Part shown: positions 5,599 to 44,437 of the stretch, piece by piece
Layout: each line of letters begins with the position of its first letter
Position numbering within the stretch: the stretch's first letter is position 1
IMG/VR virus record: IMGVR_UViG_3300034378_000082
Coordinates: 1-49,517 of that record
DNA: 49,517 nt
Reading direction: 5' to 3' (one strand)
Origin: a virus
Position numbers and translations under genes: made by a program
Notes under the pieces: generated by a model
The model's input: only the letters and a program-made list of their open reading frames with translations
Database searches by the model: none
What the model was told of the DNA's origin: nothing

Positions 5599-5904
5599 AT
5601 GGCAACCCATCCAGTAATCTACCTACGCAGACCGAAAAGACGGCAGGCTCCTCACACGGAAAGGTCAAGGCTGCTACGGAAACTTCTTCAGGAGCTAGGA
5701 CCGAATGAAAGTCTTATCGTCAAAGGTTGGTTCAAAGCCGAAGGTTTCCAGGGAGCGAGCCAAGAAAAGTCCTACCTCCAGAACTGGCTCAAAAAATACT
5801 TCCCGAAAGAAAAGTTCTATCTCGGTCTCCTCCCCCCGCAAGCGGGGTCGAAGAAAAGGCGTTGGAGAATCTGTCGAGACAAAACTCAAAAGGGCCAGGG
5901 GTAG
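5599..5904 (+). CDS. Putative winged-helix-like basic protein, 101 aa
   Basis: Frame starting MATHPVIYLRRPKRRQAPHT. From about residue 25 the sequence is globular (LLRKLLQELGPNESLIVKGW, then SYLQNWLKKYFPKEKFYL and a RRWRICRDK end), resembling a small winged-helix domain, and codon use in this frame looks like the rest of the arm. No good ribosome binding site precedes this ATG; GGAGGAGAA lies about 25 bases upstream, before a GTG (5576) in another frame that stops after 13 codons. The same DNA is also open in the frame of the next gene (from 5705), there a Lys/Ser/Arg-rich low-complexity sequence. I prefer this frame but the start is uncertain. Confidence 0.55.
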   Translation: MATHPVIYLRRPKRRQAPHTERSRLLRKLLQELGPNESLIVKGWFKAEGFQGASQEKSYLQNWLKKYFPKEKFYLGLLPPQAGSKKRRWRICRDKTQKGQG

Positions 5905-5917
5905 GCGGCTGTGGGGG

Positions 5918-6595
5918 ATGTATAAGGACAAACGGGTGTTCAAGAAATACTTGGAGGGTTTGAAGGACGCCCGCGAATTCATGTCTGAGGGTAGGATTCA
6001 TTTTCTTCAATCTGTGGGAGACTCGTACCGGAAGGCGATTTACCGGCATTTCAAGGAAGTTGACCCTGAAGGCTACAAGGAACTGATGGTGTACCGAAGG
6101 GCTTTGGCAAAGGCAAAAAAGAGGGAAAAGGAAATTCCCCTCAAGGACACGTTGGATGAGACGAAGGTTGAGATAGCCCAAGCTCATTACGAGGAAGAGG
6201 GGATCACCAAAACCCGCTTCATTCCCTTCGAGGGGATTCTGGATATTATCGCTGTGCTTCGGGCAGCGGGTTACTCGATCAAAGAGGTCTGCGCGAAGCT
6301 GCGGGTGGAACCTCAGATCGTTCAGAAAGTCACTCAGGCGGATGTAGCCCGGATGCGAAGGCGGCTGCCGGAGGCTATCACAATGGCTGCCGATAAGAAG
6401 GTAATGTTCGATTTGGCTGAAGGGGAGGTTGACAAAGACACGGAGCGTGCAGATCGGATAGCAGCCCGGAGAAGGAAACAGGCTTTGGAAGAGTGGGACA
6501 GAAGCGAAGGGAGAAACAAGCCGACTTTGCCCTCAGAAGCGAAACAGATTAGAAGTGACCATGAGACGTTCTTTGATGTGAAGGAGGGGAAATGA
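5918..6595 (+). CDS. Putative DNA-binding protein, candidate small terminase
   Basis: 225 residues from ATG 5918 (MYKDKRVFKKYLEGLKDARE). The same frame is open from ATG 5705, which would add 71 low-complexity basic residues and would overlap the 101-aa gene; that longer start is possible. Mostly helical, with a helix-turn-helix-like segment (GYSIKEVCAKLRVEPQIVQK, about residues 115-134) and a charged C-terminal helix. Phage small terminase subunits often have an N-terminal HTH and helical core, and no other candidate is seen, but the large subunit is 11 kb away, so the assignment is weak. ATGA overlap with the next gene. Confidence 0.6.
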   Translation: MYKDKRVFKKYLEGLKDAREFMSEGRIHFLQSVGDSYRKAIYRHFKEVDPEGYKELMVYRRALAKAKKREKEIPLKDTLDETKVEIAQAHYEEEGITKTRFIPFEGILDIIAVLRAAGYSIKEVCAKLRVEPQIVQKVTQADVARMRRRLPEAITMAADKKVMFDLAEGEVDKDTERADRIAARRRKQALEEWDRSEGRNKPTLPSEAKQIRSDHETFFDVKEGK

Positions 6596-6996
6596 AGAAA
6601 TGGTTGTGTGATGCTTACTTGGGGCCGGATGTTGCTGTGCGGATATATGTGACGGATGAAGGGGATCAGGGATCTTGTAGTTGTCCTTATGCTGGCAAAA
6701 AGATGAGTTGGCATGTTTGTGTAGGTGTGGGGAGGAGTTGGGGGGAGACGTTTATTACCTTGCTCCATGAGCTTTTTGAGACTGCCGCAATACTGCAGAA
6801 GGGTTCTTTTGTCCCTGACCATGCTTGGGGGGACAAGAGCGACCGACGGTTATTTTTGTTCGGGCATGGGGATTTTGAGGAGATGTGCGCTTGTGTCGGA
6901 GACGTTCTCTTGATTGTGGCACCAAGGTTGGAAAAGGCTTGGAGAGAATTCCACAAGTCTAAGAAAGAGAAAAGGAAGAAGAAGAAAAAGAAATGA
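6592..6996 (+). CDS. Hypothetical protein with LLHELFE motif, 134 aa
   Basis: Starts on the ATGA overlap with the preceding gene. Residues 57-63 read LLHELFE, followed by a second conserved-looking acidic helix (GDFEEMCACVGDVLL). This resembles small phage proteins annotated as HExxE or HExxH metallopeptidase-like, though a third ligand cannot be identified from sequence alone. The last 13 residues are almost all Lys. It is directly coupled (ATGA) to the epimerase gene, so it is transcribed with the sugar island; no link in function is evident. Confidence 0.65.
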   Translation: MKKWLCDAYLGPDVAVRIYVTDEGDQGSCSCPYAGKKMSWHVCVGVGRSWGETFITLLHELFETAAILQKGSFVPDHAWGDKSDRRLFLFGHGDFEEMCACVGDVLLIVAPRLEKAWREFHKSKKEKRKKKKKK

Positions 6997-7934
6997 GCTA
7001 TCTAGTAACAGGTGGAGCAGGATTCATTGGATCGAGTCTTGTCAGGCGATTGGTTGAGGTGGGTCATAGCGTGCGTGTGCTGGATAACTTCGCTACGGGT
7101 TCTGTGCAGAACATCAGCGATGTGCTTGACAAAGTAGATCTCATTGTGGGTGATGTGCGGAACGCTACGGTTGTGGACAGGGCGATGGAGGGAGCAAAGC
7201 ATGTTCTTCACCTTGCCGCTCTTCCCTCAGTAGTAAGATCCGTGTCGTATCCAGTTCTCACCAGTGAAGTCAATGTTCTGGGTACGCTCAACACGCTTGA
7301 AGCGGCGCGAGGGGCAGGCGTGGAGACGTTCGTGCTGGCCTCATCCTCATCGGTATATGGTAATACACCTACCTTACCGAAAACAGAAGAAATGTCTCTT
7401 GCTCCTCTGTCACCCTACGCAGTTCAGAAATTGGCTTGTGAGCATTATTGTAGGGTGTATCATCAGTTGTTTGGGCTTCGTACCTTCGTGCTTCGATACT
7501 TCAACGTATATGGGCCACGGCAGAATATCTGTTCACAATACGCAGCGGTCATACCCATATTTATCGAGAAACTCCTCAACTACCAATCTCTTGTTATTCA
7601 TGGTGATGGGGAGCAGACTAGAGACTTCACTTTCGTGGATGATGTTGTTGAGGCCACTATTCGTTGCTGTGAGGTTCCGAACGCTAAATGCGGGACGTAT
7701 AACATTGCCTGTGGCAGCCAAGTTTCTGTCAACCAGCTTGCTGGTAAGCTCATTGACTTGATGGACAGTAGTATCAAGCCTATCCACGATGATCCACGTA
7801 AAGGTGATGTGCTTCACATGCAGGCTGACGTGTCAAAAGCGTGTGAATATCTCAACTGGCAGTCTCGAATATCATTCGATGAGGGACTCAGGCTTACTCT
7901 TAAATGGTTTGCGGGGGAGGGAGGAAAGAAATGA
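6993..7934 (+). CDS. NAD-dependent sugar epimerase/dehydratase (SDR)
   Basis: 313-residue extended short-chain dehydrogenase. The NAD-binding motif is GGAGFIG (7-13), SSSSVYG lies at 117-123, and the catalytic YxxxK is Tyr142/Lys146 (SPYAVQK), followed by the family signature RYFNVYGPRQ. It matches the UDP-GlcNAc/UDP-glucose 4-epimerase and dTDP-glucose 4,6-dehydratase group; YFNVYGPRQ with a C-terminal sugar domain favours a 4-epimerase of the WbpP type. Substrate cannot be fixed from sequence. First enzyme of the glycan island, coupled by ATGA overlaps on both sides. Likely cytoplasmic, supplying a nucleotide sugar to the downstream transferases. Confidence 0.9.
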   Translation: MSYLVTGGAGFIGSSLVRRLVEVGHSVRVLDNFATGSVQNISDVLDKVDLIVGDVRNATVVDRAMEGAKHVLHLAALPSVVRSVSYPVLTSEVNVLGTLNTLEAARGAGVETFVLASSSSVYGNTPTLPKTEEMSLAPLSPYAVQKLACEHYCRVYHQLFGLRTFVLRYFNVYGPRQNICSQYAAVIPIFIEKLLNYQSLVIHGDGEQTRDFTFVDDVVEATIRCCEVPNAKCGTYNIACGSQVSVNQLAGKLIDLMDSSIKPIHDDPRKGDVLHMQADVSKACEYLNWQSRISFDEGLRLTLKWFAGEGGKK

Positions 7935-9055
7935 GAATCATCATGCCGGACAAACTGATTAAGGCTGACTCCTATTACTTCAAGCCTTTCTGTCGGTATA
8001 TCGTCTCTGATTATGAATTGGACACTCTCCTCAAGTTCTCTCCGAGAACGAATTGGAAGTGGAGTTCCTTCAACGCATGGGAGCGTAGGTATAGTGGTCA
8101 AGACCTTAATGGGAAGAAAGTTTGTGTCTACCGGCATAATGCTTGGGGAGATCAGCTTATTGCTTCTGCTATCCCCCGGTACATTAAGACGCTTTATCCT
8201 GACGCGACAGTTCACTTGTATTGTCACCCTCATGTGATGGCTCTTTGGTTGGGGAATCCCTACGTGGAGGGAAGCGCGATTTCTCTACCGATCCCATTTG
8301 AGGCCGCGATCAATTATGATTATCAAGTCTTCTATGAAGGGATGCTGGAAGGAAACAGTGAGCCGGACCAACGGTGTTGTTACGATGATATGTTTGGTTG
8401 GATCGGGTTGGATGATGTTCCGACGTGCTACAAGCGGCCTTGTTTCTTTCCGAGACCAGAAGACTATAAGTATGTGAAGAAGTCAGGGATAGACCTGAAG
8501 AAAAAATACATGGTCTATCACATGGCCCCTGACAATGAGAACAGGAGCTATCCCCCGAAAAAGAGTAAGTTGTTCATAGAGAAATTTCTGGCGGCCTTTC
8601 CTGTTTTCAATGTGATAATTGTAGGGATGGACAAGCATAAGGAGTACGAGGAAATTCTTGAAGTCTTCCGTTACGACGAGCGTGTGGTGAATCTGATTGA
8701 TAAGACTCCGAACTTCCGTGATGTCTTTCCTATCATAGAGAGAGCCTCACTCGTAATTTGTCCTGACTCCGCAGTAATGCACATGGCGGCAATCTTCGAT
8801 CAAGTGCCTGTGATTTCGCTGTGGGGTCTGTTTGCCCCTCACGATAGAATAGCGTACTACCCAAACAACTTTCCTCTTTTTCATCCTGAAGCCTGCCCTC
8901 ATGCCCCTTGTCGAGATCACAATTTCTTTTTGCCTTTAGAGAACTGCAAAGACGCTACCGAGCATCGGGACAAAGAGAGAATCAAATGGTGTTGCGCTCT
9001 GGACGCGATTACGCCGGAGGAGATCGTGGAGAGGGCGAAGGGGATCTTGGGATGA
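7931..9055 (+). CDS. GT9 (heptosyltransferase-like) glycosyltransferase
   Basis: 374 residues from MRIIMPDKLIKADSYYFKPF; the ATG overlaps the epimerase stop and follows GGGAGGGAGGAAAGAA. The middle has the GT9 N-domain pattern (YRHNAWGDQLIASAIPRYIK, strand-loop-helix with GD), and the C-domain has ICPDSAVMHMAAIFDQVP then ISLWG, equivalent to the nucleotide-sugar-binding GPDSGxxH motif of LPS heptosyltransferases (WaaC/WaaF). A Cys/His-rich tail follows (CPHAPCRDH...WCC), which is unusual. GT9 enzymes classically use ADP-heptose, and the phage also carries a heptose-type nucleotidyltransferase at 155-652. Confidence 0.85.
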   Translation: MRIIMPDKLIKADSYYFKPFCRYIVSDYELDTLLKFSPRTNWKWSSFNAWERRYSGQDLNGKKVCVYRHNAWGDQLIASAIPRYIKTLYPDATVHLYCHPHVMALWLGNPYVEGSAISLPIPFEAAINYDYQVFYEGMLEGNSEPDQRCCYDDMFGWIGLDDVPTCYKRPCFFPRPEDYKYVKKSGIDLKKKYMVYHMAPDNENRSYPPKKSKLFIEKFLAAFPVFNVIIVGMDKHKEYEEILEVFRYDERVVNLIDKTPNFRDVFPIIERASLVICPDSAVMHMAAIFDQVPVISLWGLFAPHDRIAYYPNNFPLFHPEACPHAPCRDHNFFLPLENCKDATEHRDKERIKWCCALDAITPEEIVERAKGILG

Positions 9056-9942
9056 GGCATATAAGCAGGCTTACGGGTAAGCCTCTCAAGTTCAAGACGA
9101 AAGAGCAGTATGAAGCTCAGTTGAAAGAACTTCGAGAGAAGGGTCTGGTTAAAAGGGAGCGCAGTCGAAAGACTCGTCGTGACATTAGACGTGACCGATA
9201 TTGGAAGTCTGTTCATAGCCCTCTCACGCTCCCTCCTCAACGTTTCACGCGAGAGCCTGCCGCAAAACCTGAAGGCCATGTCAGGCAAGTCTTCAGCATA
9301 ATCCAGCCTACGAGACAACGGCCTGCTCCTTGCCGTCAATGTATGTATATGTGGATGGACTACTTCTCGGAGCACAATGAGCTTGAATATGTCCTTTCAA
9401 TAGACACGGATGATGCGAAATCCTACATGCCTGTGATACAAGAGATGTTGGGCCAAGTGAATCTAAAAGTCTCAATCATGGAGAATGAGAATGTCGTGCA
9501 GGCTCTTAACGTGGGCGCGAAGATCGCTAAAGGGGACATTCTGCTCTACGTCTCAGACGATTTCGAGTGTTTTTCAAATTACGATTTGAAGATACAGGAA
9601 CTTGTGAAGGGGCAGGGAGATGATTGGTTCCTTCTAGTACATGATGGAATTCAAGACAAGATTGCCACACTTCTGATTGAGTCTCGGATGTACTACAGTC
9701 GTTTTGGGTATCTCTACTATCCTGAGTATATCTCGATGTTCGCAGATCCCGATGCCACGGAGGTTGCTCATCGGTTGGGCAAGCTCATAGACGCAACTCA
9801 TGTTACCTTCAAGCATGACCATCACTCAATAGGGGGATTCATGGCTGATGGAGTAACTGCGAAGCACGAGAATCCGCAAACGTGGGCGCATGGAGAGAAG
9901 TTGTTCAACGAAAGGAAAGCGAGGAACTTTGATCTGCCATGA
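9052..9942 (+). CDS. Family 2-like glycosyltransferase, 296 aa
   Basis: Start at 9052 on an ATGA overlap. A basic region of about 65 residues leads into the GT-A core: a first strand FSIIQPTRQRPAPCRQ (about 77-92), then GDILLYVSDDFECFS with an SDD metal/nucleotide motif (about 161-175). The end contains HLIDATHVTFKHDHHSIGG-like His-rich sequence, often near the acceptor site. The fold assignment rests on the strand and DD pattern. Donor and acceptor unknown. An open frame extends upstream to 8908 but overlaps GT9 and is not needed. Confidence 0.75.
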   Translation: MRHISRLTGKPLKFKTKEQYEAQLKELREKGLVKRERSRKTRRDIRRDRYWKSVHSPLTLPPQRFTREPAAKPEGHVRQVFSIIQPTRQRPAPCRQCMYMWMDYFSEHNELEYVLSIDTDDAKSYMPVIQEMLGQVNLKVSIMENENVVQALNVGAKIAKGDILLYVSDDFECFSNYDLKIQELVKGQGDDWFLLVHDGIQDKIATLLIESRMYYSRFGYLYYPEYISMFADPDATEVAHRLGKLIDATHVTFKHDHHSIGGFMADGVTAKHENPQTWAHGEKLFNERKARNFDLP

Positions 9943-10751
9943 GGAACTATACAGCTTACTACATGGTGATTCGAGATGAGTTTTGCTTGATGGAATCTTG
10001 TGAGTCTCTCTATGCACAAGGAGTGAGAGGTTTTTTCTTCCTTACGCCGGAGACGTATTGGGATGGGACTCCAGCTTCGGTTTCAGACATACAATCAATA
10101 GAGAAAATTTTCAGTAAGGTTTCTGGTTGGACTGGCGTGCGGGCAAAGGTGCTTCAAGTGAACCCTAAGATGTATCCTGCTCCTACTTACTTGGAGACGG
10201 AAGGAAAGATTCGGAACTTCGGGATGGAGTATTTAAGTCAGAGGGAGCATATCCTTATTGTTGAAGCAGATGAGTGGTGGAGACCGGGAACTCTCAAGAG
10301 GTTGGATGATTTCATCACGGCTTCTGGAGCAACAACGGTTTCTCTGAGGTCTATTCCGGTCGCAGGTTTCCCTGGCTACCCTCTTATCGCAGAGCAAGAA
10401 GGGTTACTCGTATATGTGAAGGCCACAGAGAGGTTCAAGAGTGGTAGGTGTCCCAACATTATTCCTAAGACGTTGCAGGACTACTTTGGGATTTATCACT
10501 TTACCTCAACACGCCGGACGATGGTGGAAACTATCTACAAGCATGAAAAGTCGAGTCATTATGATGACCCGAACTACGCTATGGACAAGTGGTTGAAAGA
10601 GAAACTTCCGAAGATAAAGCCTGGGGAGAAAGATTGCCATATGTTCAAGAAGTACCAAATCTGGAAAGAGGCGCGGCATTTCTCTGAGATTGAGTGGTAC
10701 GAGATATTGCCGGACAGTTTGAAACCTTTCTTGGGAAAACCTGGGCAATGA
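9939..10751 (+). CDS. Glycosyltransferase-like protein, 270 aa
   Basis: ATGA overlap with the previous gene. The N-terminus (MRNYTAYYMVIRDEFCLMES) and the later strand HILIVEADEWWRPGTLKRLD (about 104-123) follow the GT2 pattern, with EADEWW in the place of the DxD metal site, as in bacterial family 2 enzymes that carry DADE or EADE. A substrate half (SIPVAGFPGYPLI, YHFTSTRRTM) follows. Likely adds one sugar to the island's glycan; details cannot be read from sequence. Confidence 0.7.
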   Translation: MRNYTAYYMVIRDEFCLMESCESLYAQGVRGFFFLTPETYWDGTPASVSDIQSIEKIFSKVSGWTGVRAKVLQVNPKMYPAPTYLETEGKIRNFGMEYLSQREHILIVEADEWWRPGTLKRLDDFITASGATTVSLRSIPVAGFPGYPLIAEQEGLLVYVKATERFKSGRCPNIIPKTLQDYFGIYHFTSTRRTMVETIYKHEKSSHYDDPNYAMDKWLKEKLPKIKPGEKDCHMFKKYQIWKEARHFSEIEWYEILPDSLKPFLGKPGQ

Positions 10752-10840
10752 AGACACCTTGGCCTGAGAGAAAGCGTGAACAATTTGAAGACAAGTACGG
10801 TGAGAGGATTATGGAAAATTTTAAGGACTATGAGTTCTAA
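10748..10840 (+). CDS. Possible 30-aa charged peptide
   Basis: Reads MKTPWPERKREQFEDKYGER and continues for ten residues. The ATG overlaps the stop of the preceding transferase (ATGA), and its end carries the AAGGA that precedes the next gene. Too short to identify; it may be a real coupling peptide that keeps ribosomes moving into the next transferase gene. Confidence 0.4.
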   Translation: MKTPWPERKREQFEDKYGERIMENFKDYEF

Positions 10841-11495
10841 GTGCGTCGTCAACTTCGCGTGTCCGGGGCGAGAACGTTATCTGTTGGGGCAGGAGCGTTT
10901 GAAGAGGTCTCTCCAGACTCAGAAGTACAAAGGCCACTTAATCTTCTACACAAACAGCTACCCTCCCAAATGCCCCCCTCATCACCAAGTACCTTATGCG
11001 TTCAAATGGTACGGGCTACAAGATGCTTTCAACAGGGGGTGCGATCTTGTGTTGTGGTTAGATGCGAGTGTGGTTGTGCTCAAGCCAATGACTTCTTTGT
11101 GGGAAGTGGTAGAGAAGAGAGGGATACTGCTTTTCGACAATCCGGGTGTCCCTGCTCATTTCTTCACGTCTAAAGATTGTCTTGATAAGTTGAAATGTTC
11201 TCTTGAGGAAGCTCAGAAGATCAATCAGGTGGTAGGTGGGGTAGTAGGTTTCAATCGTAATCACCCGGACGCAAGGAACGTCGTGGACTGGATGCTTAAT
11301 CTCAGTAGGGATGGAGTTTCCTTCCAGGGAGGTTCTTGTACGAGTCCTCATCCTAAGTTCATTGTGCATAGGCACGATCAGAGTTGCTTGTCCATAATTT
11401 CGCATAGAATGAAAATCAAGAGAGAACCTTTCGAGTGGGTGAGGTATTCAAGTAGCGTGATTGGTAAGACAATACTAGAACTGAGAGGTATGTGA
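10830..11495 (+). CDS. GT8-like glycosyltransferase, 221 aa
   Basis: Start at 10830 (MSSKCVVNFACPGRERYLLG), with AAGGA only two bases away; a longer frame from 10776 overlaps the 30-aa peptide and lacks conserved sequence. The core CDLVLWLDASVVVLKPMTSL (about 71-90) matches the GT-A pattern with a DxD-like DAS as in GT8/GT32-type enzymes, followed by VVGGVVGFNRNHP, equivalent to the acceptor loop of these families. One of several single-sugar transferases in the island. Confidence 0.7.
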   Translation: MSSKCVVNFACPGRERYLLGQERLKRSLQTQKYKGHLIFYTNSYPPKCPPHHQVPYAFKWYGLQDAFNRGCDLVLWLDASVVVLKPMTSLWEVVEKRGILLFDNPGVPAHFFTSKDCLDKLKCSLEEAQKINQVVGGVVGFNRNHPDARNVVDWMLNLSRDGVSFQGGSCTSPHPKFIVHRHDQSCLSIISHRMKIKREPFEWVRYSSSVIGKTILELRGM

Positions 11496-12205
11496 TGAGA
11501 GACCGTAACCGAAGAAGAAGAAAAGTCAAACGTGATCCATCGAGGAGGCCACCTACCGTACAAGTCAAATCTGGAAAGTTGGTTGCGGTTGTAGCTGTGA
11601 CAGATTCTCCTGTTGCTGAGATGTGCTTGAGAACGTTTCCTTCATTATGTGATGCGATCTATGTCCAGTTCGATCCGTTCACAGGCACGCAGGAATTCCT
11701 AAGACACTTGAGGAGGAACCAGCAGTCTATCTTTGGAGGGAAGTTACGGATGTTACGGACTGCGAAGAGGAAGTGGACGATGGGTATGTGGCATGAGGAT
11801 CTGCTGGAAATGGTGAGGGGGGCGAACGCTTCTATGATCTTCACTCCGGGGCAAGATGAAACTTACCAAGTCAAACCTTTCCGTGCCGATGTTCAACGGT
11901 TGGTGCAATCCCCCGCGAACGCTCTGATGTTCACTTATTCTGATATGGCTACGGATGATGGGAGAGTCATTCCTTTCCGATACCCCGGCAAGCCTCACAT
12001 GAAAGTCTATAAATGGAAATCTGGGTTGAGCTACAAACCCTATAGTGGGTGTGGACAGGTTGCCAAGTACGCTCATCCGTCTGTTCAGATAAGAAGCACT
12101 ACTGGGATTAAGCATTGGTGTTTTTACACAAAGGAGATGGAAGAGAAGAAGATCCGCTGGCTTAAGAAACATTATGATTTCGAGTCCGTGATAAGAAGGA
12201 GATAG
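11495..12205 (+). CDS. Glycosyltransferase-like protein, 236 aa
   Basis: ATG at 11495 overlaps the previous TGA by one base (TGATG) and follows GAGAGGT. A strongly basic N-terminus (RDRNRRRRKVKRDPSRR) precedes a Rossmann-like strand KLVAVVAVTDSPVAEMCLRT, a GT2 first-strand pattern. ANASMIFTPGQDETY may be the DxD-equivalent strand (Q-D-E). The fold call is moderate. It lies in the middle of the glycan island. Confidence 0.6.
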   Translation: MRDRNRRRRKVKRDPSRRPPTVQVKSGKLVAVVAVTDSPVAEMCLRTFPSLCDAIYVQFDPFTGTQEFLRHLRRNQQSIFGGKLRMLRTAKRKWTMGMWHEDLLEMVRGANASMIFTPGQDETYQVKPFRADVQRLVQSPANALMFTYSDMATDDGRVIPFRYPGKPHMKVYKWKSGLSYKPYSGCGQVAKYAHPSVQIRSTTGIKHWCFYTKEMEEKKIRWLKKHYDFESVIRRR

Positions 12206-12209
12206 TTCG

Positions 12210-13322
12210 ATGCGAGTCTATCACATGATCCGCGTGGGTATTGTTGGGATTGGAGCTATGGGTAAAGGACTTGTCTATCAGTGTATGGTTACTCCAGGGG
12301 TTCAGTGTACGGCTATTACTGATGTAGATGAGAAAAGGTGTCAAGAAGTGAAAGGTTGGCTTCCTGTGGGGAGCGTGGTGCTTTTGGATGGGATGGCAGT
12401 AGCAAAATATCCTTTTGTGGACGTGTTGATTGACGCTACGGGAGACATCGCGGGAACTCTTGAGGTGTTGAAGGCAGCTATCCGAAGAGAGAAGCATATT
12501 GTAATGATGAACGCTGAGATGGATCTCGCGTATGGGGTGGAGTTGTTGGAGTTGGCTAAGACTTTTGGTGTTACTTACACCAGTTGTGGGGGAGATCAGC
12601 CTGTCGTGATAAAGGACTTAATTGACGAGATCGTGTTCTGTGGCTTCGAGCCGGTTATGGCGGGTAACATAAAGGGGTTTTTAGATCGGTACTCGAATCC
12701 TACGAAGATCATACCTGAAGCTGATAAGAGAGACCTTGATTACGTTCAAGCCGCAGCTATGACAGACGGGACTAAAATGAATATCGAGATGGCTTTGGTT
12801 GCAAACTGTCTAGGCTACAAAATTCCGAAGGTGGGAATGACTGGCCCTCGTCTTGATGTTGTTCAGGATGTCTTTAAGGCCTTTGACTTTGGTTCAATAG
12901 ATGCTCCCTGTGTGGAGTACATTGTGGGAGCCGAACCGAATGGGGGAGTTTTCGTTGTAGGAAAGTGCGACCACCCTTATCAGCGGAAGCTCTTGAGGTA
13001 TTACAAAATGGGGAATGGTCCGTATTACCTTTTCTATCGCCACTACCATATCTGCCATGTTGAGGCCATGCGCTCTGTTATTGATGCTTACAATGGAAAG
13101 TCCTCTATGCAACCTGATTTTGGTATGAGAACAGACGTGTACGCTTACGCGAAAAAACCCCTCATGGTGGGGGATACGTTAGATGGTCTCGGAGGATATG
13201 CCTGCTACGGTCTAATAGACAATTTTAAGGAGAATGGATTGCCTGTTTTACTTTGCCGTGGAAAAAAGTTGAGGCGTGCTGTGGGACGGGATAAGGAAAT
13301 CACGAAGGAGGACGTTGAGTGA
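12210..13322 (+). CDS. SAF-domain homoserine dehydrogenase-like oxidoreductase (COG4091 type)
   Basis: 370 residues; AAGGAGATAGTTCG before ATG 12210. The N-terminal Rossmann domain has VGIVGIGAMGKGL (about 8-20) and a strand-end D (TAITDVDEKR). The middle (TSCGGDQPVVIKDLIDEIVF, then ETNP-type GNIKGFLDRYSNP) and the C-terminal region with KKPLMVGDTLDGLGGYACYG fit the homoserine-dehydrogenase-like family carrying an SAF domain. These enzymes are predicted NAD(P)-dependent, several in carbohydrate contexts, with substrates mostly unknown. Its place among glycosyltransferases suggests it makes an unusual sugar or sugar substituent. GTGA overlap with the next gene. Confidence 0.75.
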   Translation: MRVYHMIRVGIVGIGAMGKGLVYQCMVTPGVQCTAITDVDEKRCQEVKGWLPVGSVVLLDGMAVAKYPFVDVLIDATGDIAGTLEVLKAAIRREKHIVMMNAEMDLAYGVELLELAKTFGVTYTSCGGDQPVVIKDLIDEIVFCGFEPVMAGNIKGFLDRYSNPTKIIPEADKRDLDYVQAAAMTDGTKMNIEMALVANCLGYKIPKVGMTGPRLDVVQDVFKAFDFGSIDAPCVEYIVGAEPNGGVFVVGKCDHPYQRKLLRYYKMGNGPYYLFYRHYHICHVEAMRSVIDAYNGKSSMQPDFGMRTDVYAYAKKPLMVGDTLDGLGGYACYGLIDNFKENGLPVLLCRGKKLRRAVGRDKEITKEDVE

Positions 13323-13984
13323 AAAAGGGAATTGTCCTTCTGATGTTTGGGGAGGAGTACAAGAAGATAGGCAAGGCTTGTCTTAAGCACTCAATGAAGA
13401 ACACCAAACTTCCCTTCAAGGTCTTCCAAGGGGCGCAAGAAAAGAACAGGCAAATCAAGACTACTCTTGTGGATCATACTCCTTTCGATAGGACTCTCTA
13501 TTTGGATTGTGATTCGATTATTCAAAAGCCTGGTATTGAGAGAGTCTTCGAGCTTCTTGAAGATTGTGATGTGATTCTACGAAGGTTCGCTAGATGGGGG
13601 AAGGGAGACAAAGTACTGAACATCTATAAGAGAGCTATGGTCCAGTTTGGGGTAACTCTTCCTTTAGATATTTGGAATGGGGCTTTCATAGCCTTCAAGA
13701 AAAATGAAGCTGTTGCGAGATTCTTTTTCAGATGGAACAAATACTGGAGAGTGTTCGGGAAGGGAAGAGAGATGCCTCCCTTAGCTTGTGCTGTCAAGAG
13801 GTCTGAAGGACTGAAAGTGAAAGCTATCCCTAGGGGTTTCTTCAATGCGGAAGAACTTGCGGATGATGTTATCGTACAGCATTACACTGGTCAGAAATTC
13901 TTGGACAAGTTCGGCCTTCCCAAATTCGAGCGTTGGACTCCTTTCGACAGTAACCCGAAAGACTTCTCTTGGACGACAATGTGA
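13319..13984 (+). CDS. GT8-like glycosyltransferase, 221 aa
   Basis: GTG start overlapping the previous stop (GTGA), with AAGGAGG six bases upstream. The core TLYLDCDSIIQKPGIERVFE (about 59-78) contains the DxD motif D-C-D after a hydrophobic strand, as in GT8-type nucleotide-diphospho-sugar transferases. NGAFIAFKKNEAVARFF matches the acceptor-loop strand of the family. Ends with HYTGQKFLDKF, a common C-terminal His motif. One base overlap (TGATG) with the next gene. Confidence 0.8.
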   Translation: MKKGIVLLMFGEEYKKIGKACLKHSMKNTKLPFKVFQGAQEKNRQIKTTLVDHTPFDRTLYLDCDSIIQKPGIERVFELLEDCDVILRRFARWGKGDKVLNIYKRAMVQFGVTLPLDIWNGAFIAFKKNEAVARFFFRWNKYWRVFGKGREMPPLACAVKRSEGLKVKAIPRGFFNAEELADDVIVQHYTGQKFLDKFGLPKFERWTPFDSNPKDFSWTTM

Positions 13985-14592
13985 TGAAGCTGCATGAATA
14001 CCAGAGTTATGAAAAGTACCATAAAGCTCAAGCTAGTTCTTTCAGAAAGGAAGGGGCCGTTTGGGTTTCAGATAAAGAAATTGATTTGATGTCGGATTAC
14101 ATTAAGACGCATCTGAAGCAGCTATCGCTTGGGATCTGTCATGGTGTCAGGAGTGGTGCTGAAGTTGAACGTTTCAAGCGGAACTTGAAGATCAATGTGA
14201 TTGGAACGGATCTATTTCGAGAACAAGGTCAACCTGATTACATTGTCCAGATAGATTTTCATCAGGTCAAACCTGAGTGGATCGAGAAGGCAGATTTCAT
14301 TTACAGTAACTCATTGGATCACAGTTATGACCCAAGGATGTGCCTGTACCAATGGAAGCGGTGTCTGAGGAAAGGGGGACTTTGCCTTTTGCATTGGAGT
14401 GTGGGTCATTGTGAAGTTGTGGTGGAGACAGGAGATTGCTTCGCTGCTTCCGAGAAGGAGTATGGTCAGATGATGAAGGAGCATTTCAAGCTCAAAGCTG
14501 CGATCAGAGTGGGCAGAGGAGATCATGGAGGAACTCACTCGACTATCTTTGTGGGGCAGAAAAGGAAAAGTTTTGATGCACGAGTATCTTGA
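13984..14592 (+). CDS. SAM-dependent methyltransferase-like protein, 202 aa
   Basis: Start at ATG 13984 on a TGATG junction (MKLHEYQSYEKYHKAQASSF). The central region QLSLGICHGVRSGAEVERFK and NVIGTDLF resembles motifs I and II of class I methyltransferases (Gly-rich loop, then acidic residue), and the strand WIEKADFIYSNSLDHSYDP resembles motif IV. YQWKRCLRKGGLCLLHW is the motif VI strand-loop typical of the fold. Acceptor unknown; sugar methylation is likely from context. Confidence 0.7.
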   Translation: MKLHEYQSYEKYHKAQASSFRKEGAVWVSDKEIDLMSDYIKTHLKQLSLGICHGVRSGAEVERFKRNLKINVIGTDLFREQGQPDYIVQIDFHQVKPEWIEKADFIYSNSLDHSYDPRMCLYQWKRCLRKGGLCLLHWSVGHCEVVVETGDCFAASEKEYGQMMKEHFKLKAAIRVGRGDHGGTHSTIFVGQKRKSFDARVS

Positions 14593-15343
14593 TGAGTTCT
14601 TTTTCTTTGAGCCAGATCGGATGAGGAAGGCTCCGAATGTTCTTGAGGTAGGAGTTTTCACATTGGATCGGGCGAAGGCTTTGAGGAAAAAATATCGTAG
14701 AGCCAGGATCGTTCTTTGTGAGGGGTCTCCCGCCAACTACAAGAAACTCGTTTCACAGAGGATTCCTCGGAGAGTACGGACCCTTCAGTATGCTCTAGCT
14801 GACAGAGATGGGCCTGTGGTTATGTACGAATTTCAGCCTGAATTCCAGAGTTCCTTCAGCTTATATCCTCGACACACTTTGGCTCCTCACTTGAAACTGA
14901 AGGTCGCTATTCATGTGGAGGGGCTTAGTCTCATGTCTCTACTTGACGAATGCAGGTTTGAGGTGGTGGATTTGCTTCTGTTGAACTGTGAGGGAGGAGA
15001 AGTGGCGGCTCTGAGAGACTTGGCTAAGTGTCACGCTTTACGTTGTAGAGTTCCGCAAGTCTGTACTTCCTTTCATACAAATGCTTGTTACGAAGGGAAG
15101 GTAAGAATGAAACTTCTGTGTGGGATGGAACAGTTCTATGATGTGCATGTAGGGGGGACCAGAGAAGTTCCTTACTACTTGTTTTTGAGGAGGGATTCAC
15201 ATGAAGAAGTTCTTCGTGGGGACAGTAGAGGGAGGAGGGACGCATCTTCTCCTGTGGCTTTTGGAAAGCCACCCCCTGGTAAAGAAACACCGGGACATGA
15301 TGGATCTACGGACGTTGGCTCCGAAAGACCCTCCGGCTCCTGA
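14576..15343 (+). CDS. FkbM-type methyltransferase with probable 3' frame change
   Basis: Start at 14576 (MHEYLDEFFFFEPDRMRKAP), AAAAGGAAAAGTTTTG upstream. NVLEVGVFTLDRAK is motif I, IVLCEGSPANYKKLVSQ the FkbM motif II, and VVDLLLLNCEGGEVAALRDL the family's signature (usually D-IKID-EG-E). FkbM enzymes O-methylate sugars or peptides. After YYLFLRR (near 15187) the frame runs 145 bases into the next gene as low-complexity sequence. One extra T in the T5 run at 15182-15186 would bring the stop onto the ATGA start of the sulfotransferase (15201), giving about 209 residues. I suspect a one-base loss, real or artefact. Confidence 0.75.
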   Translation: MHEYLDEFFFFEPDRMRKAPNVLEVGVFTLDRAKALRKKYRRARIVLCEGSPANYKKLVSQRIPRRVRTLQYALADRDGPVVMYEFQPEFQSSFSLYPRHTLAPHLKLKVAIHVEGLSLMSLLDECRFEVVDLLLLNCEGGEVAALRDLAKCHALRCRVPQVCTSFHTNACYEGKVRMKLLCGMEQFYDVHVGGTREVPYYLFLRRDSHEEVLRGDSRGRRDASSPVAFGKPPPGKETPGHDGSTDVGSERPSGS

Positions 15344-15791
15344 AGACAGGCTCCATTGGGCTTCACTCAAGAGGATGAGGAAGGATGGATTTCAGAGAGT
15401 GATCCTATTAACGAGGACTCCTGTTCATGCTGTCTATTCGGCTTACAGGCGGTTCTGGAGACCGAGGAAAGGAACGAAAGCAGAGGTAGCGATTCTTCAT
15501 CTCAAACGCCATGTGTCTTCATTGACTCTTATGCAAACGATAGAAAGGGAGTTTCCTTCTCTTCGTGTGACGTATGAAGATCTTGTTTCTGATCCGAAAG
15601 GGGAATTGAGAAAGGTTGCGGAATTCGTTGGGTTGGTTCCTGTTGAGTGGAAATATGACGTGTCGAAGACTTCTCGTTGGTTTGGGTTTTCTGGAATTAA
15701 GAATAGGAACAGGGAAGGTTGGAAGCAGGACGAAATTTTCTGTGGAGTATGGAAGAAGTACAAAGGAGTTTTTGATGCACTCACAATATGA
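15201..15791 (+). CDS. Sulfotransferase-family protein, 196 aa
   Basis: Start at 15201 after GAGGAGGGATTCAC. MKKFFVGTVEGGGTHLLLWL is the 5' phosphosulfate-binding loop region of PAPS-dependent sulfotransferases, and VILLTRTPVHAVYSAYRRFW (about 68-87) is the 3' phosphate-binding motif (usually RdPrdva.S...). LRVTYEDLVSDPKGELRKVA is the third family segment. The first loop has GGG in place of the usual R/K-S-G-T, so activity needs confirming. With FkbM methyltransferases on both sides it would decorate the island's glycan with sulfate. PAPS would come from the host. Confidence 0.8.
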   Translation: MKKFFVGTVEGGGTHLLLWLLESHPLVKKHRDMMDLRTLAPKDPPAPEDRLHWASLKRMRKDGFQRVILLTRTPVHAVYSAYRRFWRPRKGTKAEVAILHLKRHVSSLTLMQTIEREFPSLRVTYEDLVSDPKGELRKVAEFVGLVPVEWKYDVSKTSRWFGFSGIKNRNREGWKQDEIFCGVWKKYKGVFDALTI

Positions 15792-16371
15792 AGAAGAACA
15801 AATCATTCGGGACTTCTTTGGAGGGCAGAAGACAGGAAGGTTTCTCGATGTCGGGGCTTACGACGGGAGGACGTTCAGTAATACTTTCGCTTTGGCGGAG
15901 AGGGGATGGTCAGGAGTCTGTGTGGAAGCCTCCCCTCAGTGTTTCATTCAACTTCAGAAAACTTACGCTGCGAATCATAATATCGTTCTGGTATGTGGGG
16001 CTTTGAATTCGAGGATAGGGTGTTATCCTTTCTACGATAGTGGAGGGGCCGTAGCTTCCTTATCAAAGGCTCACATGGAAAAATGGGGAAAGCAGCAGAA
16101 GGATTTCAAGACGATCTACGTTTTTACTGTCACTCCTCAATGTCTGGTTCGTGTGCTACCTGGTCCTTACGATTTCGTTTCAATAGATATTGAAGGTAAG
16201 AGTATTGACACATTGGCTTTATTTCCTGAGTTGCGGACTCTCGGAGTCAAGTTAATCTGTGTGGAGGCTCCAGAAGAAAGAGACCGGGAGAAAGTTCAAC
16301 ACATTATGAATGCTTGGGGATACAAGTTTTTGGCTCGCACGCCAGAGAATGTTCTCTATAGGATGAACTGA
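15775..16371 (+). CDS. FkbM-family methyltransferase, 198 aa
   Basis: Start at 15775 (MHSQYEEEQIIRDFFGGQKT), AAAGGAGTTTTTG upstream, overlapping the sulfotransferase end by 17 bases. RFLDVGAYDGRTFSNTFALA is a clear motif I with an Asp-Val-Gly-Ala loop, VCVEASPQCFIQLQ motif II, and YDFVSIDIEGKSIDTLALFP the FkbM signature. Ends within LARTPENVLYRMN, a typical FkbM C-terminus. Likely sugar O-methyltransferase. It differs in sequence from the first FkbM gene, so the two probably methylate different positions. Confidence 0.85.
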   Translation: MHSQYEEEQIIRDFFGGQKTGRFLDVGAYDGRTFSNTFALAERGWSGVCVEASPQCFIQLQKTYAANHNIVLVCGALNSRIGCYPFYDSGGAVASLSKAHMEKWGKQQKDFKTIYVFTVTPQCLVRVLPGPYDFVSIDIEGKSIDTLALFPELRTLGVKLICVEAPEERDREKVQHIMNAWGYKFLARTPENVLYRMN

Positions 16372-16937
16372 TGTTGTTCAGTGTTTTGATTTGTACTCTG
16401 GAAGATCGGAAGCAACAGTATCTCGATCCTTTGCTTGCCCATCTTGAATCGCAAAAGGGGGAAGATGTCGAGATCCTTACCCTCTCGAATCAAAAGCAAG
16501 ACAGCATAGGGATAAAGCGGAACAGGTTACTCCAAATGGCTCAGGGGAAATTCGCGGCTTTCTTAGATGATGATGATTGGGTCTCGGATACCTATATTCC
16601 TGATATTCTTTTTGCGGTGAGGGCTGTGGAGAATTTGGATTGCATTGGGTTTTTCGGGGAAGTATATTTCAAGGGCAGGCTGGAAGGTAGGATGATTCAT
16701 TCAATATCCTGTCCTTTCTGGACGGAGGAACCTGGGACATACTTTCGGCCCCCTAATCATTTGAATCCGATTAGACTTGACATTTCCCGACAGTTCAAGT
16801 TTCCTAATGTATCATTCAGCGAAGATTTTGCTTGGTCAATGGCAGTTCAGAGTTCGGGATTGTTGAAGCGAGAGGTATTTTTGGGGCATAAGCCCCTTTA
16901 TCTCTATAAGTGCAGAGTGGAGAAAAAAGGTCTATGA
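16371..16937 (+). CDS. Family 2 glycosyltransferase, 188 aa
   Basis: TGATG junction with the FkbM gene. MLFSVLICTLEDRKQQYLDP is a canonical GT2 first strand, IGIKRNRLLQMAQGKFAAFL leads to the DDDDW motif (residues about 66-70) that binds nucleotide and metal. At 188 residues it is short for GT2 and is close to the bare catalytic domain. Last clear enzyme of the glycan island. Donor unknown. Confidence 0.85.
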   Translation: MLFSVLICTLEDRKQQYLDPLLAHLESQKGEDVEILTLSNQKQDSIGIKRNRLLQMAQGKFAAFLDDDDWVSDTYIPDILFAVRAVENLDCIGFFGEVYFKGRLEGRMIHSISCPFWTEEPGTYFRPPNHLNPIRLDISRQFKFPNVSFSEDFAWSMAVQSSGLLKREVFLGHKPLYLYKCRVEKKGL

Positions 16938-17314
16938 AATACGATGAGTTAGTTGAGTTGTTGATGAGAGTGGCTGCGGGAGGTCAGAGAAAAGATTCTC
17001 TGCATCTCAGTAAAGCAGATGATGTTGATTCTCAAATCAAGTATGTCCAACGAACTCAAAATACTTTTGACTTAATCTGGATCAAAAAGTCAGTGGAAGA
17101 TCCCCTCTTTCAGTTCTGGAAACTTGTGAAGGGAAACGCTCTTGCTCCAACGTGCTTTGTCATTTTCACAGGAGCCAACACGGTCGGCTGGACTCAAGAG
17201 CTTGCGAGCTACGAGACGATCCGATGGGGAGACCTTTTCCTGTTGATTGCTGATACTACAACTACTCCCCCTGTCGTGCCTTCGCAGCGGGGGATTTTTA
17301 GAGATGAGGAGTGA
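16934..17314 (+). CDS. Hypothetical protein, 126 aa
   Basis: Start at 16934 (MKYDELVELLMRVAAGGQRK) on an ATGA overlap, AAAAAAGGTCT upstream. Ends in a Thr/Pro-rich tail (TTTTPPVVPSQRG). The middle (TQNTFDLIWIKKSVEDPLFQ) looks globular. I do not recognise it. It stands at the border between glycan and packaging genes and is coupled to both. Confidence 0.6.
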   Translation: MKYDELVELLMRVAAGGQRKDSLHLSKADDVDSQIKYVQRTQNTFDLIWIKKSVEDPLFQFWKLVKGNALAPTCFVIFTGANTVGWTQELASYETIRWGDLFLLIADTTTTPPVVPSQRGIFRDEE

Positions 17315-17741: not shown

Positions 17742-17862
17742 AGAGAAAGTGAAAAAGAAGCTGACAGGGGAAGCTGAGAAGATGGCTGCGAATAGGCAGA
17801 CATACACAAAGCCCCTTAAAAAAGCTACTCCAGAACAAGCCTTCAAAGGTAAGAAGAAGTAA
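17731..17862 (+). CDS. Small Lys-rich protein, 43 aa
   Basis: Starts MMPEEKVKKKLTGEAEKMAA (the second ATG at 17734 is equally possible), behind GAGAGGTTGGGAGAAAT, and ends KGKKK. The TAA overlaps the ATG of the large terminase by one base (TAATG). No family recognised. Tight coupling on both sides supports it. Confidence 0.55.
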   Translation: MMPEEKVKKKLTGEAEKMAANRQTYTKPLKKATPEQAFKGKKK

Positions 17863-19847
17863 TGCTCGGATATTTCGATAAGGACTCCTTCAAGGAGAAC
17901 CAGAAGTTATATCCTAATCTTGCCGCTCTCGATGAGAGTATCACAAAACTGCTCCGATCTGATGCCGCTAAGAAGTGGGATGTAGGCCGTCGAGAAGTCG
18001 AAATTTGCCGGAGACATCCTATCTACTGGATGGAGAAGTACGGCTTTATCAAGGCCGGAGAAGTTCTTGGAGGGTCAGAAGAAGTTGGGATCATTCCCTT
18101 CAGGCTGAACCATACTCAGCTTCAGACCGCCAACCAGATCTGCAAAGCCTTCCTGAAGAAACCTTGGTCTCGTGTCCAAGCAGTAGTCCTCAAGCATCGT
18201 AAGGCTGGTACATCCACACTCTTTGCAGGGTTCGATTACTGGCTTGCCCGCTTCATTCGGATGCTTAATCTGTTTGTGATTGCTGACCTTGGATCACACA
18301 CGGACAACATCGTTGCTATGATAGAGTTGTTTCATAAACGGGATGAGTGTGGTAAAGGATTGGACCCTAAGTTCCGTCCTCCTAAAAGAGTCCCAATGCC
18401 TAAGAACAAGAAAGGACTGAAGTTCTCTAATGGTTCAATGGTCGAGCAGGACTCAGGTGAAAATTCCAACCCTGGTACAAGTGGTACGATTCAAGTTCTT
18501 CACAACTCTGAGTTCTCGAAGTGGAGAGACAAGGAGAACGCAGAGACATCTCTTCTTAACTCGATCCCCCGCACAGGCTTTGCCTTCATTGTGAAGGAAT
18601 CTACGGCTTTTGGATTAAACAAGTTCTCTCAAGATTGTGAAGATGCGGAGAGAGGAAAATCAAATTGGGATTTCATTTTCATTTCATGGAAGGATTTGCC
18701 GGATTGTGAATACTCTTTAGATGTGGGGGAGGAACTTCAGTATGATGAAAAGGAGGCTGAACTTGCGGCTGCATACAAGTTGAGACCGGGGCACGTCAAA
18801 TTCAGGCGCAGTCAGATAGAACTCCTTGGGAGTGAGGAAAGGTTCAGGCAGGACTTTCCTCTCAACAGTAAAGAACCCTTCCTTGTTACGGGTGCGAATT
18901 TCTTCAACGCATCATTGGTTCAAGAGAGGATCATGGAGATCAAGTTCTACCATGATTGGAAGATTCATGGGGAAGATGGATTAGAGGAGAAATATCCTGA
19001 GATTGTTCAACGAGTTAAGCATCATCCAGGAGGGAAGCGGGAAGCTCTCGCGTTGTATGAGAATAGGAATGTTCTGCCTGAGATGAAGTGCATTGTTATC
19101 AATCGGGAAAAAGTGACTTTAGTACCTCCGCCGAAAGGTGGGTCAAAGGAAGCAGTTACGGTCTTTCGTTTGCCCCGGAGGGATAGGCGGTATCTTCTCA
19201 CGATTGATGTGGCTGAAGGTATCAAGACGGACGAATACACGAGTGACTTGAGTATCATTCAGGTTTTTGACACTTACAATCGGGAGCAGGTTGCGGAGTG
19301 GGGTGGGATTTTTGACGAAGAGGTAACGGCTTTCTATGCGGTCTTGATTGGGCGGTACTACAATGAAGCTGAGATTGCTCCTGAGATGAATAACAAGTGT
19401 GGAGGGCTTCTGAAGGCTGAGTTGGAGAAATCGAAATATCGTAGATTTTTCTACCGGCAGAAGATTTCAAGCTCTCACCGGATAGAACGGGCCTTTGGGT
19501 GGGAAACCACGGTAGGTAACAAAAAGGAGGTTTGTGGGCAGTTTCGACTGGATTTCAAGAATGGGGATTGCGTAATCCATAGTCTCTCCCTTTTGAAAGA
19601 AATGCTTTATTTTGTTGACAACAAGGGAAAGCTATGTGCATCATCCGGGACAGATGATCGAGTCATGGCAACGAGTGTGAATTTGAAGATAATAGCAGAC
19701 ACCCCTGCTTACCGCCGAGTTGTGAGAAAAAAGATAGATAGACAGATGAGAGAGCCTCAAGCCTACCCTGAGTATAATGATCCTTTTGTTACTCAGCAAC
19801 GGTATGAACAGCGTCAGCGAGAAGTCTTGCGGAGGCACATGAGATGA
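17862..19847 (+). CDS. terL: Terminase large subunit
   Basis: 661 residues, the usual size range for TerL. The N-terminal ATPase has a deviant Walker A, KHRKAGTSTL (111-120), and HNSEFSKW (214-221) in the Walker B position, where Ser-Glu replaces the common Asp-Glu. The C-terminal RNase H-like nuclease has TIDVAEG (Asp449), PEMNNKCGG (about 508-515) and SGTDDRVMA (Asp598/599), the three acidic positions expected. The motor packages DNA into the prohead through the portal encoded next (ATGA overlap). Class of packaging (headful or other) cannot be told from this. Confidence 0.93.
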   Translation: MLGYFDKDSFKENQKLYPNLAALDESITKLLRSDAAKKWDVGRREVEICRRHPIYWMEKYGFIKAGEVLGGSEEVGIIPFRLNHTQLQTANQICKAFLKKPWSRVQAVVLKHRKAGTSTLFAGFDYWLARFIRMLNLFVIADLGSHTDNIVAMIELFHKRDECGKGLDPKFRPPKRVPMPKNKKGLKFSNGSMVEQDSGENSNPGTSGTIQVLHNSEFSKWRDKENAETSLLNSIPRTGFAFIVKESTAFGLNKFSQDCEDAERGKSNWDFIFISWKDLPDCEYSLDVGEELQYDEKEAELAAAYKLRPGHVKFRRSQIELLGSEERFRQDFPLNSKEPFLVTGANFFNASLVQERIMEIKFYHDWKIHGEDGLEEKYPEIVQRVKHHPGGKREALALYENRNVLPEMKCIVINREKVTLVPPPKGGSKEAVTVFRLPRRDRRYLLTIDVAEGIKTDEYTSDLSIIQVFDTYNREQVAEWGGIFDEEVTAFYAVLIGRYYNEAEIAPEMNNKCGGLLKAELEKSKYRRFFYRQKISSSHRIERAFGWETTVGNKKEVCGQFRLDFKNGDCVIHSLSLLKEMLYFVDNKGKLCASSGTDDRVMATSVNLKIIADTPAYRRVVRKKIDRQMREPQAYPEYNDPFVTQQRYEQRQREVLRRHMR

Positions 19848-23959: not shown

Positions 23960-25141
23960 ATGCACCTTAGTAATCAATTCCTCGAATTGTTTCGGGAAGA
24001 GACTTATGCGGTGAATCTGGCTCTCTACGATAATAGGGAGTTGGAGAATCCGTTTGATGGAATCCTTGCCAGAAGGCCGATGTCCGGTATGTGGACAAGA
24101 GAGTATTCTGTTGTCCCTATCGGGGCATTGGGTGGCCGTAGGGAAGCCGAACCTATTCCTCAGAAGAATATGGTCATGGGCTATACCTGCTATGGTGCTC
24201 AGTGTATTGAGGCCTCCGGTAAGGTCAATCTGTCAAAGACTCTTCAGCAACGGTCTAGGGAATTCAGTAGTCCTGGCGGATCTATTGATGAACCTCGGTT
24301 TGCAGGCCATTTGGCTGATTCAATTGGGCGTGCGTTCTTGCTGCGTCGTGCTCAGAAGTGGCATTGGCTGGCTGCGCGTATCTTCAACCTTGGAGGTATC
24401 CAAGCTGGTCATGTTTTCTTCAATCACCGCACAAGAACAAACGGTCTGTCTGATCTGCCGAACACCACCCTGCAATACGACGCGAGGCCGTTGTTTGCCC
24501 TACCCGCGAATGCCCACCCTGCATATTCTGACAACGCGGTGATAGGGACAAATGCTGCTGCTGTCGGTACAACTATTGACATGGCAGCGACGATTGCCGA
24601 CACAGGAGGGTATTTCAATGCCTTCTTGCTGCCGCCTTCGTATTGGGCATTGAAGCGCGTGATAACGCACTTCATAAACAATATGCAGTACGACGAGAAC
24701 AACGAGCAGTATGATGATTCACCGGACACGCTTCTGGTGAGTTCTCATAATCTCATGCTCTGGACTGAGATTCTCGAATCGAAGTTCATTGAGCCGAGGG
24801 CTGCGGGTGATACCACTAACATCGAGAACATCTTCCAGATGGAAGGGTTCAGGATGAAATTGGTTCACTCTCCGCGTCTCGTCAGAAATACCTGGTTCGT
24901 TGGTAGGGCCAACTCAGGGGGAATCAATGTCCTCGATGTCGAGGAGAAAGAAGACCCTTGGGCCTACTACCGTGATGAAGATAACAGGGCGTACTTCATC
25001 TCGTTTGAAGACGATTGGGGCTTCATCATTCGGAATTGGAGGAACTGGTGTGGGGGAGCTATCTCACAAGATGGCACAACTGCCCCGACCTTCAACAACG
25101 TGCCGGAAGAACAGTGGAATCGCATACCTGCGGGTGTGTGA
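23960..25141 (+). CDS. Major capsid protein candidate, 393 aa
   Basis: 393 residues, start at 23960 after AAGGAGTAGAGAACC. Length, position after the scaffold gene and composition (abundant Asn, Gly, Ala, few Cys) suit a HK97-fold capsid protein of P22/T7-like size. Segments such as TIADTGGYFNAFLLPPSYWA and TLLVSSHNLMLWTEILESKF look like a central A-domain; the end is Trp-rich (WGFIIRNWRNWCGG). The identification rests on gene order; no single diagnostic motif exists for this fold. Confidence 0.78.
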   Translation: MHLSNQFLELFREETYAVNLALYDNRELENPFDGILARRPMSGMWTREYSVVPIGALGGRREAEPIPQKNMVMGYTCYGAQCIEASGKVNLSKTLQQRSREFSSPGGSIDEPRFAGHLADSIGRAFLLRRAQKWHWLAARIFNLGGIQAGHVFFNHRTRTNGLSDLPNTTLQYDARPLFALPANAHPAYSDNAVIGTNAAAVGTTIDMAATIADTGGYFNAFLLPPSYWALKRVITHFINNMQYDENNEQYDDSPDTLLVSSHNLMLWTEILESKFIEPRAAGDTTNIENIFQMEGFRMKLVHSPRLVRNTWFVGRANSGGINVLDVEEKEDPWAYYRDEDNRAYFISFEDDWGFIIRNWRNWCGGAISQDGTTAPTFNNVPEEQWNRIPAGV

Positions 25142-43543: not shown

Positions 43544-43585
43544 TATAGAGCTTCCTTTCGAGTATCGGATATTACCTTGTTCGAT

Positions 43586-43768
43586 TTACGCATATATGCG
43601 CTTCACTTCTTCAATTCTGATTTCACGGTTTCCGTGTGTGCGCCGGATTCTCCGCTTGCCGTCCTCAATGGCCTCGTCTTCATTCTCGCCTCGCGCTTCA
43701 ACAAACCCATCGTACATCGGCATCCCTATCCCACCGGGTAACCATGCCTTGATCTTCCATCGTTTCAT
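43586..43768 (-). CDS. Small basic hypothetical protein, 60 aa
   Basis: AAAGGAGTATGAC upstream of ATG. Reads MKRWKIKAWLPGGIGMPMYD and GENEDEAIEDGKRRIRRTHG. Compact beta/helix pattern with a basic C-terminal half. No family recognised. Well-placed site and isolated by 42-44-base gaps on both sides. Confidence 0.6.
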   Translation of the reverse strand: MKRWKIKAWLPGGIGMPMYDGFVEARGENEDEAIEDGKRRIRRTHGNREIRIEEVKRIYA

Positions 43769-43812
43769 GTCATACTCCTTTCAAATCGAACAAAGCAATC
43801 GAGAGTATTGCG

Positions 43813-44416: not shown

Positions 44417-44437
44417 GGCGAACAAACGCCTCCACCG

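Follow-up and report, generated by a model that had tools for sequence, protein, structure and literature searches.

The window analyzed in this study is the whole of a 49,517-nucleotide stretch of DNA from an uncultured virus (record IMGVR_UViG_3300034378_000082). Between positions 6993 and 16937 it carries a run of genes for enzymes that convert, transfer, methylate and sulfate sugars, which we call the glycan island. In an uncultured lineage of tailed phages, we found that the island occupies a variable cassette site flanked by the terminase genes, the small one of which is putative. An earlier note on this DNA had described a phage-encoded set of genes that makes and decorates a glycan and is tied to the packaging arm, and our findings uphold this description; related phages also use this position. 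The enzymes of the island all appear to be soluble. We think, with a probability of about 0.5, that the island is a cassette of soluble glycan enzymes which glycosylates virion proteins in the cytoplasm.

Relatives of the virus were found by searching viral records with the terminase, capsid, GT9 and DRL proteins, and comprised long genomes and short contigs. The long genomes were G4 (IMGVR 3300035125_000070), G1 (3300036979_000299) and G5 (3300025736_000079); G1 is circular and has a 91-bp repeat at its ends. The large terminase (terL), portal and capsid genes of the window recur in all three. In these genomes and in the window, the island lies at the same position, between the gene for a GT9 glycosyltransferase (7931-9055, + strand) and a gene for a 134-aa protein (16910-17314, +). 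The GT9 gene is the start of the island in all four genomes (54-56% to the window), and only the window has an epimerase gene ahead of it. The distance from the GT9 gene to terL varies, being about 8.8 kb (window), 9.5 kb (G4), 5.1 kb (G5) and 3.0 kb (G1).

The contents between these bounds vary widely. The window has 14 genes from the epimerase gene to the 134-aa gene, and 10 of them were found in G4, 4 in G1 and 2 in G5. The ten genes shared with G4 stand there in a different order. This genome has no epimerase, third methyltransferase, first FkbM methyltransferase (FkbM1) or sulfotransferase of the window's kind, and it carries as extras a different sulfotransferase, a GNT-I-like transferase, a second gene of the type found at 11492 in the window, and a SPASM radical-SAM gene (L005:8485-9339). 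G5 retains only the GT9 and 134-aa genes and has its own cargo of GT4-like transferases and three methyltransferases (among them a Methyltransf_24 and a CmcI-like enzyme). The island of G1 consists of only about five genes, one of them GT34-like, and the relatives L014 and L024 showed further gene combinations. Since the bounds of the island are constant and its contents differ across relatives, the site is fixed and its cargo turns over. The earlier note had proposed searching other phage genomes for the same gene set; in G4, G1 and G5 the site, the GT9 gene and the 134-aa gene recur, with different cargo. A terminase scan of a bacterial genome collection for a host or prophage gave no relatives. 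Roseobacter phage CRP-7 was the best terminase match among phage records, and comparison of its capsid and portal proteins gave no match.

The span 6993-16937 proved correct; all its genes lie on the + strand inside the phage genome. The head-to-tail packing with short overlaps reported in the earlier note was likewise confirmed. That is, the run from 6993 to 17314 is 99.7% coding, and 4-base ATGA/GTGA start-stop overlaps occur at six junctions when starts revised from the relatives are used (GT9, 7931; the transferase GT2a, 9052 instead of 8908; the class I methyltransferase, 13984; the second FkbM methyltransferase, FkbM2, 15775). On the 5' side lie an AAA ATPase/helicase-like gene and a putative small terminase gene, and on the 3' side the 134-aa gene is followed by terL, portal and capsid genes, with a gap of 547 bp from the last island gene to terL. 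No promoter or terminator stood out above shuffled sequences; the island is probably expressed together with the packaging genes. The GC and GC3 values of the island match those of its flanks, and thus do not suggest a foreign or host insert. Flanking host DNA, which would have spoken against the earlier proposal, is ruled out by these values together with the conserved phage genes around the island in four genomes.

Among the enzymes of the island, the epimerase (6993-7934, +) is an NAD-dependent nucleotide-sugar epimerase (Pfam Epimerase, 2.8e-61) whose nearest solved structures are of the WbgU/WbpP type (PDB 3ru7, 7e-72). It contains both the GxxGxxG and YxxxK motifs, and had no match in G1 or G4. 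The protein at 12210-13322 (+) is a DRL/SAF-type NAD(P) oxidoreductase, COG4091-like (Pfam DRL_cat, 6.5e-40; PDB 3upl, 1.3e-42; 54% in G4), and is homologous to the catalytic domain of Brucella DRL. Some of its bacterial relatives are found in exopolysaccharide-type clusters, adjoining rml and Bac_transf genes. Judged from the genes around these relatives, the enzyme would seem to act on sugars; the neighbourhoods do not point to a role as DXP reductoisomerase. DRL matches were also found in unannotated Listeria phage records.

Four genes encode decorating enzymes: a class I methyltransferase (13984-14592, +; Pfam Methyltransf_11, 2.6e-4), FkbM1 (14525-15343, +; Pfam, 7e-7), a PAPS sulfotransferase (15201-15791, +; Pfam Sulfotransfer_3, 7e-10) and FkbM2 (15775-16371, +; Pfam, 9.2e-8; relatives in G4 and L014). 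FkbM1 and FkbM2 scored 30.0 and 32.8 bits against a PF05050 cut-off of 22.7, and their S-adenosylmethionine (SAM) motifs are present. The sulfotransferase scored 40 bits against a Sulfotransfer_3 cut-off of 27. Its 3'-phosphate motif, RxPxxxxxS, reads RTPVHAVYS; its 5' loop, GGGTHLLLW, was identified by eye, the regular expression having given no match. Catalytic and cofactor motifs are intact in the epimerase, in the FkbM and class I methyltransferases and in the DRL enzyme. No relative of the sulfotransferase was found among 50,697 phage records at E 0.01, and neither GT9 nor GT2a had a relative in the same records. FkbM1 and the sulfotransferase gene overlap by 143 bases, with a low-complexity tail, possibly through a recent frameshift or stop loss.

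As for the glycosyltransferases, GT9 is heptosyltransferase-II-like (Pfam Glyco_transf_9, 5.3e-8) and shows a GT-B fold with a GT9 C-lobe signature. Its modelled C-lobe resembles WaaF (1psw) with a VIA Z of 19.0, a comparison confined to the C-lobe, the model of the N-lobe being poor. Four conserved Cys residues suggested the iron-finger Cys4 motif of TibC/BAHT protein heptosyltransferases, and a TibC-type enzyme was considered. We retain it as no more than a lead, as the Cys spacing differs (5/12/15 against 3/16/12) and the fold is nearer to WaaF than to TibC (Z 13.2). Three further transferases are backed by profile or fold: GT2a (9052-9942, +; PHROG 14945 glycosyltransferase, 6e-13; also in G1 and G4), a GT-A fold protein at 11492-12205 (+) and GT2b (16371-16937, +; PHROG 14775, 6e-27). 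The 11492 protein was predicted together with its two G4 relatives (AF2 pLDDT 67), and its fold matched SunS (Foldseek, 1e-5) and ThuS (VIA Z 11.8). GT2b is related, at 30-33% identity, to actinobacteriophage glycosyltransferases, namely gp93 of Gordonia phage Forza (2e-23) and gp105 of Mycobacterium phage Avani. A Pfam Glycos_transf_2 match of 9.1e-8 was obtained among the island proteins.

The remaining candidates are putative. The protein at 13319-13984 (+) may be a GT8-like transferase (NCBIfam Npun_R2821, 1.4e-4; LYLDCD motif; 50% in G4), and that at 9939-10751 (+) may be of the GT-A type (Pfam GT2, E 0.17; a 45% relative in G4). A gene next to bacterial DRL genes was considered as a relative of the 13319 gene and showed no real similarity. 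The putative transferase at 10776-11495 (+) gave no Pfam or other profile match and no DxD by regular expression; its family recurs in viral glycan loci, with relatives in 18 of them. Profile comparisons among the unnamed transferases were too shallow to be informative. The island thus holds GT9 and up to six GT-A-type transferases, a count that rests partly on weak evidence. The earlier note had listed, besides the epimerase, GT9, SAF-domain dehydrogenase, two FkbM enzymes, another methyltransferase and sulfotransferase, which were all recovered by profile matches with mostly intact motifs, five GT2/GT8-like transferases. Of the six GT-A-type candidates that we counted, we could support those at 9052, 11492 and 16371, while 13319 remained weak and 9939 and 10776 unproven.

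The last fixed gene of the island, that of the 134-aa protein at 16910, precedes terL in 9/9 aligned members, always lying just 5' of it, and the protein and its relatives end in PSQ(R/K)G. It matched no known family or fold and had no credible PDB match; the idea that it is a reduced methyltransferase was dropped when the profile comparison was not significant.

We surveyed 98 viral loci outside this lineage that hold an island family, using a window of about 12 kb. At least two island-family genes were found within this distance in 70/98 loci, and at least four in 22/98; the loci commonly carry 2-6 families. In control loci picked by other genes, two different non-DRL island genes occurred in 0/29. 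Relatives of GT2b were found in 180 viral loci, and the order GT2a-GT2b-FkbM-10776 recurs in unrelated viruses. One unrelated virus has a GT9 of 571 aa whose C-terminal region is methyltransferase-like (L019:9935-11650). Glycan genes lay within 5 kb of terL (detected by phrog_2) on the same strand in 8/13 other viral records, compared with 2.9 expected under a simple null with an assumed 70% same-strand chance; after removal of near-duplicates, the number was 6/11 (P about 0.016). Multi-gene glycan sets are therefore not rare in uncultured viruses, and the earlier view that they are exceptional in phages finds no support, pelagimyophages also offering a precedent (PMC7029224). A bolder and less probable reading is that many unrelated uncultured tailed phages share a terminase-side cassette site, in which soluble glycosyltransferases, FkbM enzymes, sulfotransferases and epimerases are swapped. 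Every phage would then bear a distinct virion glycan, decorated and sometimes sulfated, as a general means of serotype switching.

How the island might work can be considered as follows. Late in infection, host nucleotide sugars would be used, one being converted by the WbgU-like epimerase and perhaps another by the DRL oxidoreductase. GT9 and the GT-A transferases would then build a chain stepwise on a cytoplasmic acceptor, with O-methylation from SAM and sulfation from PAPS to follow. The likeliest acceptor is a virion protein, so that a decorated glycan would appear on the head or tail, where it may serve shielding, particle stability or adsorption, and the turnover of cargo between related phages would make its structure differ from phage to phage. 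The island makes no nucleotide sugar de novo and depends on the host for PAPS, SAM and activated sugars. The island is thus not the entire pathway that the earlier note supposed.

No ORF with at least two membrane segments was found in the window, G4, G1 or G5 by simple hydropathy with a crude threshold. This suggests that the phage has no flippase, polymerase or lipid-linked exporter of its own, and export of a lipid-linked glycan by phage proteins only is unlikely. Two routes are then left: virion proteins could be glycosylated in the cytoplasm, or the enzymes could modify precursors of the host, which would export them itself. We favour a virion target because no polytopic membrane protein was detected, because the island is linked to virion and packaging genes, because glycan genes of other viral records often lie near terL, because GT2b is related to actinobacteriophage glycosyltransferases, and because capsid and tail-tube glycans have been reported in mycobacteriophages (Freeman et al. 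2023, as cited in PMC12619734 and PMC11256854). Forza gp93 sits between the head-tail adaptor and the tape measure. Avani gp105 (L050:2980-4146) belongs to a three-GT operon and, though annotated only as a glycosyltransferase, joins a GT2 to a TylF/Methyltransf_24 methyltransferase in one protein; an association of methyltransferases with glycosyltransferases is thus seen both there and in the island, which has three methyltransferases.

Several points weigh against a virion target. The proteins of the virion arm show no Ser/Thr-rich tail. The fold of GT9 is closest to an LPS heptosyltransferase II, and some bacterial DRL relatives belong to exopolysaccharide-type clusters. Nearness to terL is no proof of such a target.

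Some of these points would suit a remodelling of the host envelope, in which the enzymes alter precursors of the host's LPS or capsule at the membrane's inner face, a host flippase exports the altered glycan, and superinfection or re-adsorption of progeny is blocked. The epimerase also resembles O-antigen enzymes, the rml and Bac_transf genes beside DRL relatives fit, and such a reading has been published for pelagimyophages (PMC7029224). However, neither a GtrA-type flippase nor any other polytopic membrane protein was found, no integrase was seen among the part of the ORFs that was scanned, and placement with packaging genes makes expression probably late, when a change of the envelope is of little help. 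We regard envelope remodelling as possible and prefer glycosylation of virion proteins to it, a choice that sequence alone cannot decide. It is rather improbable that the island is an assortment of accessory genes acquired one by one, which act on several separate targets and yield no common product: gene order and content do differ strongly among relatives, as if families were swapped and not co-inherited, but the reading frames overlap tightly, the motifs are intact, ten families are retained in both the window and G4, and the four-gene order mentioned above recurs in unrelated viruses. Glycosylation (hypermodification) of phage DNA bases, known for phage glycosyltransferases (cited in PMC12619734), is very improbable, as the replication-arm genes scanned (PolA, UDG, MT-A70, primase, AAA and PD-(D/E)XK) included no thymidylate-synthase-like, hydroxymethylase or other base-modifying gene, and a sulfotransferase with FkbM enzymes better suits sugars on other acceptors.

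The following genes next to the island are on the + strand. The putative small terminase (5705-6595) is HTH-like (weak HTH_23; 27-33% in G4, G1 and G5) and not proven, and between it and the epimerase lies another 134-aa protein (6592-6996) of no assigned function (G5 relative, 33% over 60 aa). Downstream are the large terminase subunit (17862-19847; PHROG terminase matches; 53-58% in relatives), a portal protein assigned by position and size (19844-22060; 47-56%) and a probable major capsid protein assigned by position and conservation (23960-25141; 61-69%). No end repeats were found in the window. On the - strand there are a prephenate dehydratase gene of amino-acid biosynthesis (40104-40952; PF00800, 1.5e-43; weak ACT domain), which does not figure among the window genes with a match in G1, G4 or G5; a uracil-DNA glycosylase superfamily gene (42896-43543), which adjoins the phage DNA polymerase A gene and has a relative in G1; and an MT-A70 adenine methyltransferase gene (44438-45031) close to where the GC content of the window peaks (0.569 at 43501-45000).

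The commonness of many-gene sets weakens the argument from rarity, and at the same time makes the system of wider interest. Should the glycan sit on the particle, phages would have sugar coats that vary, bear sulfate and methyl groups and are made by soluble enzymes of the virus, with consequences for the choice of receptor, the decay of particles and recognition by the immune system. Such a gene set offers a direct test case for a bacterial virus that builds a protein glycan without membrane machinery, and supplies uncharacterized families that recur across viruses, namely those of the 10776, 11492 and 134-aa genes.

Temperate phages convert the O-antigen by gtrABC, with a membrane flippase and a lipid-linked donor. 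There too phage genes alter a glycan, as we propose here, but a gtr flippase-type membrane protein was not found in the window, G4, G1 or G5. In chlorovirus PBCV-1, virus-encoded enzymes outside the membrane system likewise build a glycan, that of the capsid; this is a eukaryotic virus with at least eight glycosyltransferases (PMC7019647). The hypervariable regions of pelagimyophages and cyanophages are, like the island, variable regions with several glycosyltransferases tied to structural genes, but they lie near tail fibres and are read as changing the O-chain, whereas the present region lies between terminase genes and includes sulfation and FkbM methylation (PMC7029224). Mycobacteriophage virion glycosylation likewise combines phage glycosyltransferases, to which GT2b is related, with a methyltransferase; as described in the sources cited above for it, that system has two or three genes, compared with about 13 here including a sulfotransferase, an epimerase and a DRL enzyme. 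Phage regions with several glycosyltransferases and virion glycosylation are thus already known. In the literature searched, the coverage of which was partial, we found no report of FkbM and a sulfotransferase together in phages. As far as our tools show, what is new is the fixed, terminase-flanked site with its extensive exchange of cargo, the combination of sulfotransferase, FkbM and DRL enzymes, and the recurrence of unnamed families.

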